DNA from: a bacterium | Lineage (GTDB): Bacteria > UBP15 > UBA6099 > DSWB01 | Assembly: GCA_020061125.1 (NCBI GenBank) | Contig: JAGUYV010000280.1 | Span: 1-8,109, forward strand | Direction: 5' to 3' | Length of the DNA: 8,109 nucleotides | In this document: positions 2,990-8,109 of the stretch, piece by piece | Layout of the letters: each line of letters opens with the position of its first letter | Position numbering within the stretch: the first letter of the stretch is position 1 | Notes under the pieces: model-generated | Database searches by the model: none | The model's input: the letters and a program-made list of their open reading frames with translations, nothing else | Told to the model about the DNA's origin: nothing | Program-made: the position numbers and the translations under genes

Positions 2990-3064
2990 ATGCATACGCT
3001 CAAACCGATCCTTGTTCTCATATTGCTGACGGCCTGCGCCTCCTCGTGCGGCCCGGCCCATGCC
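2990..3064 (+). other. Signal peptide of the repeat protein (SPase I or lipoprotein type)
   Basis: The N-terminus has one lysine (K5), a hydrophobic core of about seven residues (7-13), then L13-T14-A15-C16, which fits a lipobox, followed by a small-residue segment ending A23-H24-A25. Cleavage at C16 would give an outer-envelope lipoprotein with Ala at +2; cleavage after A25 would give a soluble exported protein. The sequence does not decide between the two. Confidence 0.72.
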
Positions 3065-6000
3065 GTTGCTTTCACGGACAGCGGGCAGTCCCTGGCATGG
3101 GGTTCCCTGCAATACGGCGTTCTATCGGATCTTGACGGCGACGGTTTCGCGGACATCGTGGTGGCGCGAGACGGCGCAAACACCGTGTGGATGAACGACG
3201 GGAGCGGCGCATTCTCGAACAGCGGCCAGAACCTGGACGCAAACGACACGCGCGGCATCGCGGTTGCGGATTTCGACAACGATGGGGATCTGGACCTGGC
3301 TTTCGGCAACGACGACGCGGGCATGTCCGTGTGGCGCAACAACGGGGCCGGTACATTCACGGACACCGGGCAAACCCTGGGCGCGGGGGCTTGCGTGCGC
3401 CTGGCCGCGCTGGACATTGACAACGACGGCGACATGGACATCTTCGAGGCCCGCAGCGCCGCGCCCAAAGGCAGGTTCTGGCTCAATGACGGCTCGGGAG
3501 CATTCACCCTGTCATCAGAAACCATTGCCCCGGACACGGCATGGCATGTGAAGGCCGCGGATATGAACGCCGACGGATACGATGATTTGATCATCGCCAC
3601 GACTGTGAACATCACGGTTTATTACAGCGACGGCGAAGGCGGGTTCGACACATCCGACACCGTGGCCGCCACTGGTGAAATCCTGTGCATTCACGACTAT
3701 GACGCCGACGATCAACCGGACATCGCGAATTTCTCCACCACCGGAGATAACGCGCTGTTCAAGGTCTGGGCCTCTCCATTCCAGTTCTATCAAGACAAGG
3801 GCCAGTCTTTCGGGGATTACAATTCTGGCGGATGCGCGGCCGCGGACCTGGACAACGACGGGGATGTTGACCTGGCGCAATCCGGCGCGGATGTTCCCAC
3901 GCCTACGCGCTTCTGGCTCAACGATGGCGTTATGTCTTTCTCCGCAGCCACGGATACTCTTGCGCTCGGCCCCGCAACAATTCTCGGCGCATCGGATGTG
4001 GACGGAGACGGCGACGCGGACCTGGTGTTCCATCCCCTGGCCGGAAACGGGCTTGTATATCTGAACCAAACCGCTGACGGCGGCAACGCCAACGCCGCGC
4101 CCTCGGCCCCATCGTCCCTGTCCGTGCAGACCGCGGGCGAGTTCGAGCGCACGCCCTCGCTCCAGTGGTCGGGCGATTCCGACGACACCAGCCCAGCCGG
4201 GCTTTTGTCTTATGAGTTGCGTATCGGCACAGCGCCGGGCGCGTATGACGCGCTGTCGTTTCTTGCCGCCGAGGAACCACCGCGGCTGCGCAAAAGCCCG
4301 TTCAAGCCCCACGCCCTGGCGGACGGCGATTACTACTGGGCCGTGCGCACCGTAGACGCCGCGGGCGCGCGTTCCGCGTGGTCCGCGGAAAGCTCCTTTT
4401 CGATTTCCTCTTATTTGTGGCGCAAAAGCAACCCTGTGATAGTCCCTTCGACTTCCGAGACCATGAACCTGATCGCCGCGGACGCTGACGGCGACGGGGC
4501 CGTTGACATCATTTCCGCGTCCTCGAATGCGGCACGGCGCGGAATTTTTCTGAACCAGGGCAACGGCGATCTTGAGGACAGCGGCACGGTTGTTTCGTGC
4601 GAAGCCGCGCGCGCCGCGGATGTGGACGGCGACGGGGATCTGGACCTTGTGTGCAACAACGATGTGTATGTGAACGGCGGCGGATTGTCGTTCACGGCAT
4701 CCGGTCAGAGCCTTGGCATGGACGGCCTGTGCGTGGCGGACCTCGACGGCGACGGCGATTCGGACATAGCGGGTGGCGGCCCGCGCCGTGCGTATTTGAA
4801 CAACGGTTCGGGCGTGTTCGGCCCCACCCTCGAGGGCGCATTCGGCTCATGCGTGATCGCCGCATGCGGGGATCTGGACGGCGACGGCGACGACGATGTT
4901 GCCGTGAATCCATGCGGCGAATCATCGGTTTCCCTATGGAAAAACGACGGCAAGGGCGGGTTCGGCGCTGCGCCATGGCAGACGCTGACTCTGGAAATGG
5001 ACCCAACGGCCCTGGAACTTTTGGACCTGGACGGCAACGGATATCCCGACATTGTGTACAACACGGGCGCGCCGCTTATGAATAACGCGGGTTCGTTCAC
5101 CGCGGGATCTGGTTCTCTGAATCCGGGACTGGCCCCCCTTGGCATGACACTCGGAGATTTGAACAACGATGGCTGGATTGACGCTTATGTGACCGCTGCG
5201 GGCACAAGCATTCCAAGATTGAACAACGGCGCCGGCGGATTCCAGAACGCAACGGAGTATTATCTCTATGAAACCGGCAAGTATCCGGCCGCGGCCGCAG
5301 CCGCGGACATTGACGGAGACGGGTATCTCGACATCGTCACTTCGGGCGGGTCCACTTTTTTCAATGATGCGTTCGACGGCCCCCCGGCGCCCGCAGCAGC
5401 CAACACGCCCCCCGCGGCCCCGACGCCGGTGGCTCTCCCGGACACCGCCACCTCCACCATTACATTCGCCTGGACCCAGGCAACAGACGCGCAGACTCCT
5501 GACGCGCACATCACTTACAATGTGCGCATCGGCACGGTCAGCGGCGGCAACGACATCCGCTCGGGCGAGGCGCCCGTTGGCCCGGGGCGTGCGGGCGCGG
5601 CCGAAACCCTCACTTTGAAAAATCTGCCCGAGGGAACCATCTACTGGTCCGTACAGGCTGTGGACACGGCCTGGGCCACCTCCCCTTGGTCCGCGGAGGA
5701 TTCTTTTGTCATCTCCATCCCCTTCGCATTCACCGAATCCACGGCCACTCTGCAAACCGCGAACACGGCCTCGGTGTTTCTGGCCGATGTGAATTCCAAT
5801 GACGCGAACGGCCTTGGCGATGTGATCACGGCCACAGAAAACGGGGCGGCCGTGGCTCTGAACGCAGGGAACGGAACCTTCTCCGCGCCGTCGAATTATG
5901 GGACCGCTGCGCCCTCGTGCGCTGTGGGCGCGGACCTCGACGGCCAGCCGCCATCCTCGGGAAACGGCGCCACGGATTTGATCCTCTGTTACAACGGCAT

Positions 6001-8109
6001 GAATACGGTCATGCTCAACAACGGAGACGGGACCTTCAGCGCCACCACGGTGAGTTTCGGCGCGGGCGACACATCTTCGGCCGCGGCGTTCGATGCGGAC
6101 GGAGACGGCGACAACGACATTGTTTTCGGCAACCGCACGGGCGCAAGCACGGTCTGGATTAACAACGGAAACGCCACCTTCACGCAGGCGGCCGGCAGCC
6201 TCGGAAGCAACACGGTCAACGCCGTTGTTCCCGGAGATGTTGACGGCGATGGAGACACGGATCTGATTCTTGTGATCAATGGCGATAATTTGCTTTTAGT
6301 CAACGACGGAGACGGCGGTTTCACGGACAGCGGGCAGACTCCTGGCGCGGGCGAATCCCTGTCCGGCGCGCTCGTGGATATTGACGCGGACGGAGACCTG
6401 GATTTCATCGAGGGCCGTTCCGGCGCAACCCGCATCTGGCGTAACAACGGCGCGGGCAGCTTCACGGATACCGGCGCCGCGCTCGGCGCGGGAGACACCG
6501 TTGCCATCGCGTACGCGGATTTCGACAACGACGGGGACTGGGACTTTTTCGCGGCCAACAGCGGCTCGGCCTCCAAACTGTGGCTCAACAACGGCGCGGG
6601 CGTCTTCTCGGACTTCGGTTCGGATTACGCGGCCGCGGACATAGTGACTTCAGCCAGGGCCGCGGACCTGGACGGCGATGGCGATGTGGACATCTACCTC
6701 GGCATCCAGGGCCAGGACAAAATCCTGTTCAACAACATCGCCGACGCATCAGGCGGCATCAGCCCGAACTCGCCCCCTTCCGCTCCCTCCGTCATCGCCG
6801 TTGGCAACCCCTCCCTGACCACCATCACCCTCGAATGGACCGCCGCTTCGGATGTCGAGACCCCGGCAAACCAGATTTCGTACAATGTGTGCGTTGGTAA
6901 AACTTCGGGCGGAGGCGAGGTCATGGCCTGCCGGAACGGCATCGGCCCGGGCAATGCGGGCGCGGCCTTGAGCCACACCATCGGAAATCTCTATCCCGGA
7001 ACCTATTACTGGTCCGTGCAGGCCGTGGACGGCGCCTTTGCGCGATCCGCATTTTCCGCTGAAGACATCTTCAACAATATCGCGCCTTTCGACGACACGG
7101 AACAGACCCTGGGCAACTCCAAGACTCGCGGCGCGTTCGCCGCGGATGTCAACATGGACGGGGACATTGATGTGATCGCGGGCGCGGACGGCGCATCCAC
7201 CCTGTGGGTCAACGACGGCGATGGCGCGTTCACAAATTCCGGCCAGAATCTCGGCACGCACAGCACCATCGCCGCGTTCGGCGGCGACTTCGACAACAAC
7301 GGATATGTGGATCTGGTCAAGGCCGAATACAACGGCGCGGCCCATGTGTATCTGAATACAAACGGCATATTCACGGACACGGGGCAAACCCTGGACATGT
7401 CCGGCTCCAATGTATACGGCGTCACGGGCATTGACGCGGACGGCGACGGCGACATGGATCTTGCCTTCGCCACATACGGCAACAACAGACTCTTCATCAA
7501 CGACGGCTCGGGCGCATTCACGGACTCCGGCGAACCCATGCCCGGCACCGTGTCCAACAGCTTGGCCGCCGCGGACATAGACGGCGACGGCGACATGGAT
7601 CTCCTCGACGCCACTTCCTCGGGCATCAAAATCTGGACCAATGACGGGTTCGCTTCCTTCACGCTCCAGTTCGCAAGTTACGGGACCAACGCCACCGAAG
7701 TGGCGGTTGCGGATGTGAACGGCGACGGCATCCCGGACATCATCCGCGGCGGCTCGCTCGGCACCAACATCTTCACGGGCAACGGCAACGGCACATTCAA
7801 CGACACCGGCGCGACCCTGTCCACTGCAGCGAGCATTTCTTCCCTGCATGTCGTGGACGCGGACCTGGACGGCGATTTCGACATCCTCGCCGCCACCAAT
7901 CAGGGAACCTACCTGTTTCTGAACGACGGCACTGGCGCGTTCACGGATTCGCAACAGCGGCTCGGTCCCAACGATACGCGCGCCATCGCCGCAAGCGATT
8001 TCGACGCGGACAGCGACCCCGACCTTTTCGCTGGAAACTACAACCAGCCGGACAAAGTCTGGGAAAACTGGCGCATCAGCTCCGGTTCTCCGATCAGCGC
8101 CAACACCAC
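2990..8109 (+). CDS. Giant exported multi-propeller protein: (7 FG-GAP/VCBS blades + FN3)x4, 3'-truncated by the window edge
   Basis: The frame is open from ATG 2990 to the right edge (1706 complete codons, no stop), so the protein is larger still. An in-frame TGA (2987-2989) abuts the ATG, and a later start would remove the signal peptide, which fixes this start even though no good ribosome binding site is seen. Residues 1-25 form a signal peptide: K5, then the hydrophobic stretch ILVLILL. It carries both a lipobox-like L-T-A-C (C16) and an A-H-A site (residue 25). Then come four seven-bladed propellers (about 26-364, 474-797, 910-1256 and 1362-1700) separated by FN3-like domains (about 370-473, 805-909 and 1260-1361). 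Blades are about 40-53 residues and follow the pattern calcium loop, then a hydrophobic strand, then W/F-x-N-[DN]-G-x-G-x-F. Such proteins are typically surface or secreted binding or structural proteins; no catalytic domain is visible here. Ligand and anchoring are unknown, and the C-terminus, where a sorting signal would lie, is not in the window. Confidence 0.93.
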   Translation, partial: MHTLKPILVLILLTACASSCGPAHAVAFTDSGQSLAWGSLQYGVLSDLDGDGFADIVVARDGANTVWMNDGSGAFSNSGQNLDANDTRGIAVADFDNDGDLDLAFGNDDAGMSVWRNNGAGTFTDTGQTLGAGACVRLAALDIDNDGDMDIFEARSAAPKGRFWLNDGSGAFTLSSETIAPDTAWHVKAADMNADGYDDLIIATTVNITVYYSDGEGGFDTSDTVAATGEILCIHDYDADDQPDIANFSTTGDNALFKVWASPFQFYQDKGQSFGDYNSGGCAAADLDNDGDVDLAQSGADVPTPTRFWLNDGVMSFSAATDTLALGPATILGASDVDGDGDADLVFHPLAGNGLVYLNQTADGGNANAAPSAPSSLSVQTAGEFERTPSLQWSGDSDDTSPAGLLSYELRIGTAPGAYDALSFLAAEEPPRLRKSPFKPHALADGDYYWAVRTVDAAGARSAWSAESSFSISSYLWRKSNPVIVPSTSETMNLIAADADGDGAVDIISASSNAARRGIFLNQGNGDLEDSGTVVSCEAARAADVDGDGDLDLVCNNDVYVNGGGLSFTASGQSLGMDGLCVADLDGDGDSDIAGGGPRRAYLNNGSGVFGPTLEGAFGSCVIAACGDLDGDGDDDVAVNPCGESSVSLWKNDGKGGFGAAPWQTLTLEMDPTALELLDLDGNGYPDIVYNTGAPLMNNAGSFTAGSGSLNPGLAPLGMTLGDLNNDGWIDAYVTAAGTSIPRLNNGAGGFQNATEYYLYETGKYPAAAAAADIDGDGYLDIVTSGGSTFFNDAFDGPPAPAAANTPPAAPTPVALPDTATSTITFAWTQATDAQTPDAHITYNVRIGTVSGGNDIRSGEAPVGPGRAGAAETLTLKNLPEGTIYWSVQAVDTAWATSPWSAEDSFVISIPFAFTESTATLQTANTASVFLADVNSNDANGLGDVITATENGAAVALNAGNGTFSAPSNYGTAAPSCAVGADLDGQPPSSGNGATDLILCYNGMNTVMLNNGDGTFSATTVSFGAGDTSSAAAFDADGDGDNDIVFGNRTGASTVWINNGNATFTQAAGSLGSNTVNAVVPGDVDGDGDTDLILVINGDNLLLVNDGDGGFTDSGQTPGAGESLSGALVDIDADGDLDFIEGRSGATRIWRNNGAGSFTDTGAALGAGDTVAIAYADFDNDGDWDFFAANSGSASKLWLNNGAGVFSDFGSDYAAADIVTSARAADLDGDGDVDIYLGIQGQDKILFNNIADASGGISPNSPPSAPSVIAVGNPSLTTITLEWTAASDVETPANQISYNVCVGKTSGGGEVMACRNGIGPGNAGAALSHTIGNLYPGTYYWSVQAVDGAFARSAFSAEDIFNNIAPFDDTEQTLGNSKTRGAFAADVNMDGDIDVIAGADGASTLWVNDGDGAFTNSGQNLGTHSTIAAFGGDFDNNGYVDLVKAEYNGAAHVYLNTNGIFTDTGQTLDMSGSNVYGVTGIDADGDGDMDLAFATYGNNRLFINDGSGAFTDSGEPMPGTVSNSLAAADIDGDGDMDLLDATSSGIKIWTNDGFASFTLQFASYGTNATEVAVADVNGDGIPDIIRGGSLGTNIFTGNGNGTFNDTGATLSTAASISSLHVVDADLDGDFDILAATNQGTYLFLNDGTGAFTDSQQRLGPNDTRAIAASDFDADSDPDLFAGNYNQPDKVWENWRISSGSPISANT
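3065..4081 (+). repeat. Propeller 1: seven FG-GAP/VCBS-type blades
   Basis: Calcium loops begin at 3128 (DLDGDGFAD), 3269 (DFDNDGDLD), 3413 (DIDNDGDMD), 3560 (DMNADGYDD), 3695 (DYDADDQPD), 3845 (DLDNDGDVD) and 3995 (DVDGDGDAD), spaced 135-150 bases. The fifth is degenerate: the glycine is replaced and the sixth position is D. Seven blades match the closed fold of integrin-alpha-like propellers. Three cysteines occur, before the loops of blades 3, 5 and 6. Confidence 0.88.
4097..4408 (+). other. Fibronectin type III-like linker domain 1
   Basis: About 104 residues (370-473) lack the calcium loop and show an FN3-like pattern: a proline-rich entry (APSAPSSL), a central tryptophan (LQWSGDSDD), the YELRIGT strand, and the late signature YYWAVRTVD followed by SAWSAE. 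Its middle (around 4234-4310) differs in sequence from the other two copies, which share a SGG motif there. Confidence 0.75.
4409..5380 (+). repeat. Propeller 2: seven FG-GAP/VCBS-type blades
   Basis: Calcium loops begin at 4481 (DADGDGAVD), 4619 (DVDGDGDLD), 4739 (DLDGDGDSD), 4871 (DLDGDGDDD), 5024 (DLDGNGYPD), 5156 (DLNNDGWID) and 5306 (DIDGDGYLD). All seven are intact. Blades 2 and 3 are the shortest in the protein (loop spacing 120 bases between them). The first four blades carry all six cysteines of this propeller. A run of six alanines precedes the seventh loop. Confidence 0.88.
5402..5716 (+). other. Fibronectin type III-like linker domain 2
   Basis: Residues 805-909 open with NTPPAAP, then show TFAWTQATD, the YNVRIGTVSGG strand, YWSVQAVD, and SPWSAEDSF. 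It resembles domain 3 (YNV-x-x-G-x-x-SGG and YWSVQAVD shared) more than domain 1. Domains of this kind commonly link VCBS propellers in large secreted proteins. Confidence 0.78.
5717..6757 (+). repeat. Propeller 3: seven blades, the first two with enlarged calcium loops
   Basis: Loops begin at 5786 and 5933 (both lengthened, 12 and 15 residues instead of 9), then 6092 (DADGDGDND), 6236 (DVDGDGDTD), 6377 (DIDADGDLD), 6518 (DFDNDGDWD) and 6665 (DLDGDGDVD). Blades 3-7 are regular at 141-147 bases. Despite the enlarged loops, the blade count stays at seven, and blades 1 and 2 keep the N-x-G-x-G-T-F end motif. Confidence 0.86.
6767..7072 (+). other. Fibronectin type III-like linker domain 3
   Basis: Residues 1260-1361 begin NSPPSAP and contain TLEWTAASD, the YNVCVGKTSGG strand, YYWSVQAVD and SAFSAEDIF. 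Unlike domains 1 and 2 it has two cysteines (codons 6890-6892 and 6929-6931), 13 residues apart on either side of the SGG turn, which could form a local disulfide after export. Confidence 0.78.
7073..8089 (+). repeat. Propeller 4: seven FG-GAP/VCBS-type blades
   Basis: Loops begin at 7145 (DVNMDGDID), 7286 (DFDNNGYVD), 7433 (DADGDGDMD), 7574 (DIDGDGDMD), 7712 (DVNGDGIPD), 7856 (DADLDGDFD) and 7997 (DFDADSDPD). The last has Ser in place of the loop glycine. This is the most regular propeller (138-147 bases per blade) and has no cysteine. The residues after it (SPISANT) resemble the entry into FN3 domains 2 and 3, so another FN3 domain probably starts at the window edge. Confidence 0.87.

Follow-up and report, generated by a model that had tools for sequence, protein, structure and literature searches.

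The window analysed here is 8109 bases long, which is the full length of contig G000:C386 in a metagenome-assembled genome (79% complete), and ends in a large gene built of FG-GAP/VCBS repeats. The question it raises is whether these repeats are an uncounted row or a series of separate closed propellers, and what such a series would do outside the cell. The open reading frame (2990..>8109, + strand) encodes 1706 aa and is open at its 3' end, truncated by the contig end. ATG 2990 was taken as the start because an in-frame TGA lies at 2987. Upstream, bases 1-2895 carry the end of queA, an SDR-family reductase, and the tRNA-modifying radical SAM protein MnmL/YtqA; none of these was seen beside the relatives' genes, and no gene neighbourhood common to the window and the relatives was found.

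The protein begins with an export signal (Table 1), and its relatives have signal peptides at the matching position, without a clear lipobox. A possible lipobox, L13-T-A-C16 (LTAC, 3026-3037), was noted in the window signal peptide and was not seen in the relatives. Cleavage by signal peptidase I near AHA is a possible alternative, so that the sequence would allow either a lipoprotein or a signal peptidase I substrate.

Blade count and domain order

The preliminary description had proposed profile searches with FG-GAP, VCBS, and FN3 models. The whole window protein matched PF13517 (FG-GAP_3) at 1e-141 (462 bits, cut-off 26.9) in 21 stretches and PF01839 at 1e-38 (131 bits). The fn3 model (PF00041) scored 27.3 bits for the whole protein, above its cut-off of 25, while single FN3 domains fell just below it (Table 1). 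Two other candidates were dismissed. NCBIfam NF052323 was a propeller cross-match with a score far below its cut-off, and TcdB_toxin_midN reached 24.3 bits against a cut-off of 24.8, which was read as a cross-match of the same kind because the Tc B component bears this propeller class.

All 28 loops that had been named beforehand were found, and they fall into four groups of seven. The protein was also segmented with two HMMs, one for blades and one for FN3 domains, which were first trained with the window sequence and then refined with order-level relatives; the result was B7-F-B7-F-B7-F-B7. The sequence itself shows the start (SANT) of a further FN3-like domain after the last set, in agreement with the description of one such domain after each set and a fourth beginning at the edge. 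The spacings also held exactly: the first loops of the sets lie at bases 3128, 4481, 5786, and 7145, that is, 1353, 1305, and 1359 bases apart, and the gaps from each last loop to the next first loop are 486, 480, and 480 bases. If 28 blades were dropped at random into 4 bins, an exact 7/7/7/7 split would have a probability of 0.0066.

The loops match D-x-[DN]-x-[DN]-G-x-x-D strictly in 24 of 28 cases, and the remaining 4 are variants. The canonical G is missing from two loops, in blade 5 of module 1 (DADDQPDI) and blade 7 of module 4 (DADSDPDL), and two loops of set 3 are longer by 3 and 6 inserted residues (DVNSNDANGLGD, DLDGQPPSSGNGATD). The metal held by these loops is probably Ca2+.

Table 1. 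Features of the window protein, with window coordinates and loop starts in residues of the protein
Feature	Position	Strand	Loop starts (aa)	Evidence
Export signal, aa 1-25 (MHTLKPILVLILLTACASSCGPAHA)	2990..3064	+		Sequence reading
Propeller 1, seven VCBS/FG-GAP blades; velcro strand FTDSGQ at 3071-3088	3065..4084	+	47, 94, 142, 191, 236, 286, 336	Loop count, HMM segmentation, two-module AlphaFold2 model
FN3-like domain 1	4085..4411	+		HMM segmentation; Ig_Rha78A_N 24.2 bits alone, below its cut-off of 27.4
Propeller 2, seven blades	4412..5395	+	498, 544, 584, 628, 679, 723, 773	Loop count, HMM segmentation
FN3-like domain 2	5396..5719	+		HMM segmentation; fn3 19.1 bits alone, below cut-off
Propeller 3, seven blades; longer putative calcium loops in blades 1 and 2	5720..6760	+	933, 982, 1035, 1083, 1130, 1177, 1226	Loops, HMM segmentation, AlphaFold2, structure matches
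FN3-like domain 3	6761..7078	+		HMM segmentation; fn3 21.4 bits alone, below cut-off
Propeller 4, seven blades	7079..8080	+	1386, 1433, 1482, 1529, 1575, 1623, 1670	Loop count, HMM segmentation
Linker and first residues (SANT) of fourth FN3-like domain, cut at contig end	8081..8109	+		Sequence reading

Ring closure and fold

By inspection, the last strand is missing from blade 7 of sets 1-3, and modules 1, 3, and 4 have such a strand before blade 1 (FTDSGQ, FAFTES, and PFDDTEQ, respectively), with a diverged version in module 2. This is the velcro arrangement described for integrin-type propellers, in which an N-terminal strand closes blade 7 (PMC3192720). In the mechanism we propose, each module would consist of one independently closed seven-bladed VCBS-type propeller, with a metal loop in each blade, and an FN3-like spacer after it, and the strand after the signal peptide or after an FN3 domain would complete blade 7 of its own ring.

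AlphaFold2 models were made of module 3 with its FN3 domain and of modules 1 and 2 together. The module 3 model was confident (pLDDT 84.5, pTM 0.84), and its residues 1-340 matched seven-bladed structures at Z 29-33, including LGI1 EPTP (33.0), CRTAC1 (32.8), aldos-2-ulose dehydratase (31), and integrin alphaIIb (30.7). In the two-module model (pLDDT 63.7, pTM 0.42) the rings were moderately confident and the FN3 was unstructured; the first ring closed within residues 1-345, with Z 30.9 against the seven-bladed aldos-2-ulose dehydratase. Structure matches to this model extend no further than residues 335-375, which is short of the FN3 domain or slightly into it. The folding alignment was enriched in seven-blade relatives, which may bias a model toward seven blades; the query's own seven units are independent of the relatives chosen for that alignment. 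The structure prediction and blade count that had been proposed earlier thus gave a closed seven-bladed ring predicted with high confidence for ring 3 and moderate confidence for ring 1, and the two-module model did not settle the hinge geometry or the FN3 fold. For rings 2 and 4, seven-bladed closure is suggested by the count of loops in the sequence.

It is conceivable that blades pair across the FN3 domains or that ring sizes differ, since some VCBS propellers have lineage-specific blade numbers that arise by internal blade amplification (PMC9218822). We regard this as highly improbable given the velcro layout, the module 3 model, the matches that stop at 335-375, and the invariant number of seven. 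Separate, self-closing seven-bladed rings on FN3-like hinges are the best reading and are supported by the data. The earlier claim to that effect is borne out by the same layout and model, by one-ring matches that end at the FN3 domain, and by the recurrence of seven blades plus FN3 in relatives.

Relatives and known systems

The window protein and six relatives from the same order were segmented with our own HMMs. All 26 complete propellers (4 in the window protein, 6 in L026, 8 in L027, 4 in L028, 1 in L029, 2 in L030, and 1 in L031) have seven blades, and no complete ring with another blade number was found in this order. L029 has a second ring cut by the contig end. L026 and L027 consist of the unit B7-F repeated six and eight times, respectively. 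An in-frame TAG at residue 1401 of L026 (G001:C201, a 3430-aa frame), near the end of the third FN3 domain, splits its otherwise open six-module gene; it could reflect a nonsense mutation, a fault in the assembly, or a gene that is truly split. The own-genome sibling L030 (G000:C83) combines two propeller modules in one chain with a GH130-like domain (43.2 bits, cut-off 26); a Big_2-like domain and a recurrent terminal domain are also part of the fusion.

Seven blades per ring are not special to this protein. In a single-protein scan of 80 loci from many phyla, uninterrupted internal blade runs were of 7 in 78 of 124 cases and of 14 in 13 of 124; because runs of 7 or 14 dominate across phyla, seven is a general rule of VCBS/FG-GAP propellers. 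What is new here is the module number, which differs among proteins (2, 4, 6, or 8). Same-position blades resembled each other across modules more than they did when circular registers were chosen at random, in the window protein (3/500) and L026 (0/500), weakly so in L027 (9/500), and not clearly in L028 (80/500) or L030 (60/500); the reduced length of blade 7 in every module may contribute to this similarity. These sequence comparisons suggest that module number probably changes partly by whole-module duplication, in some proteins. By such whole-module steps the string would lengthen or shorten, and its reach and avidity would be set.

The protein adds a well-ordered member to a described class, because VCBS-core strings with Ig-like domains and tandem bacterial rings are already known (PMC8023676, PMC3192720). 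VCBS-core proteins have a signal sequence, several propellers, and mostly Ig-like companions (Pereira and Lupas 2021, PMC8023676). The window protein shares with the VCBS-core prokaryotic propellers (PF13517) the signal sequence, the DxDxDG loop between strands A and B, and the presence of several propellers; it differs from VCBS-core proteins generally in its strict alternation of seven blades and FN3 within one bacterial order. Strings from Ignavibacteria, Rhodothermia, and Cryomorphaceae (L042, L043, L061, and L114) likewise have seven-bladed rings every 1300-1400 bases, but their linker is Big_5 (PF13205), above cut-off in L042, L043, and L061 and weak in L114, whereas that of the window protein is FN3-like. 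Bacterial tandem seven-bladed integrin-type propellers, including 14-repeat proteins, have also been described (Chouhan et al. 2011, PMC3192720). Like the window protein, these have tandem rings of seven repeats each, with a metal motif in almost all blades and an N-terminal strand that closes blade 7. In contrast, the window protein matches PF13517 better than PF01839 and has FN3-like separators, with up to eight rings in its relatives.

The modules had been likened to integrin-alpha heads. The likeness holds for the fold, since integrin alphaIIb (PDB 3nid) and module 3 have a seven-bladed fold in common (Z 30.7 over 308 residues, with about 15% identity). It does not extend to the sequence, which belongs to the VCBS/PF13517 branch; all 28 blades carry a metal loop, whereas integrin alpha has metal sites in three or four blades. 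By inspection, thigh or calf domains, a transmembrane helix, and a cytoplasmic tail of the integrin type are found in none of the complete relatives; the window gene itself is truncated at its 3' end. The only PDB sequence match at E <= 0.001 was CRTAC1 (PDB 9etn; 3e-7), which also matches over the module at Z 32.8. CRTAC1 is a single-ring animal extracellular protein, whereas the window protein is a multi-ring string.

C-terminus and function

The window stops about four residues into the fourth FN3 domain, and contig C88 of the same genome, when reversed, starts about ten residues into an FN3 domain of the same class. Strong matches to the module-type FN3 within this genome were confined to the window (three), the sibling on C83 (two), and the edge of C88 (one), the last with 44% identity to window FN3 3. 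C88 can also be aligned continuously with the last part of the L030 propeller string, from L030 residue 836 onward (E 3e-25). From these orphan ends we infer that the window gene quite likely continues on C88. The join stays an inference because the two contigs do not overlap exactly by 15 or more bases. Further FN3 domains follow on C88 before a type I dockerin (PF00404, 27.2 bits, cut-off 22.9) forms the C-terminal end, and the cut C-terminus would most likely follow the same course. Beside that dockerin end lies the gene of a second secreted dockerin protein (617 aa; L032:2205-4055:-), whose N-terminal region looks cohesin-like by eye and has no Pfam match.

A dockerin end could dock the string onto a cohesin-bearing lipoprotein of the same genome. 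One cohesin, and only one, scored above cut-off in the genome (PF00963, 40.5 bits). It forms the C-terminal part of a protein encoded on G000:C118 (L158:2255-3655:-), which starts with a lipoprotein-type signal and has Ig-like repeats; the gene adjoins another with an N-terminal dockerin-like region. We offer only tentatively the idea of a calcium-dependent, length-adjustable surface string that is held by its dockerin in the cohesin lipoprotein rather than by a membrane anchor, as a non-cellulosomal cohesin-dockerin display of integrin-like rings. A dockerin is not the usual end of this family, because complete same-order relatives of the window protein end in a different, recurrent terminal domain.

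This domain spans about 150 aa, contains the motifs GWNLIGNP and PWKGYxxKA, and was observed at the C-terminal end of L030 (G000:C83:5472-5930) and at loci L130-L149. It occurs in 16 copies in the own genome and in 7-23 copies in each of six other same-order genomes, and gave one marginal match in six genomes outside the order. In 16 of 20 loci checked it stops 1 to 37 residues before the stop codon; in others it comes after the signal peptide. Pfam and NCBIfam gave no match to it above cut-off.

A recurrent terminal domain, together with very regular modules in variable number, would suit a mainly passive stalk or surface-layer spacer, in which rigid Ca-loaded discs extend a terminal functional domain and the rings have no binding role. 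We find this improbable; propellers are costly as spacers compared with FN3 or Ig repeats, and the rings differ strongly (identities to window module 3 of 32-36%), whereas repeats that act purely as spacers often remain similar.

VCBS propellers serve mostly in the recognition of glycans or proteins (PMC8023676, PMC9218822), and rings outside the cell would most likely bind glycans or surface proteins. The GH130-like domain of L030 hints at glycans. The GW motif of the PVL/tachylectin sugar pocket (loop DA'), which is characteristic of that branch only and not universal in the supercluster (PMC8023676), was present in 0 of 28 window blades; the window protein is therefore not placed in the PVL/tachylectin lectin branch, and the missing motif speaks against a PVL-type sugar site. 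Rings that are not adhesive could instead bind substrate or act as a scaffold within an extracellular system for polysaccharide degradation, holding substrate near enzymes through dockerin and cohesin. The GH130-like domain after two modules in the sibling, the occurrence of both dockerin and cohesin families in the genome, and the typical tie of VCBS propellers to carbohydrate recognition (PMC9218822) are all consistent with such a role. However, we consider it rather unlikely, as no multi-cohesin, cellulosome-like scaffold was seen in the genome beside its single cohesin above cut-off, the window protein has no enzyme domain, and the GW motif is absent.

Taken together, the data make it reasonably probable that the protein is an exported, modular, multivalent binder, composed of closed, Ca-stabilised seven-bladed rings on FN3-like spacers and likely ended by a dockerin via C88. 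Knowledge of the propeller fold itself is unchanged by the window protein. What changes is that an uncounted FG-GAP/VCBS row becomes a testable architecture of separate closed rings, hinges, and variable module number. The cohesin-dockerin route would be a possible anchor for a propeller string, and the natural series of 2, 4, 6, and 8 modules is suited to asking how avidity scales with ring number.
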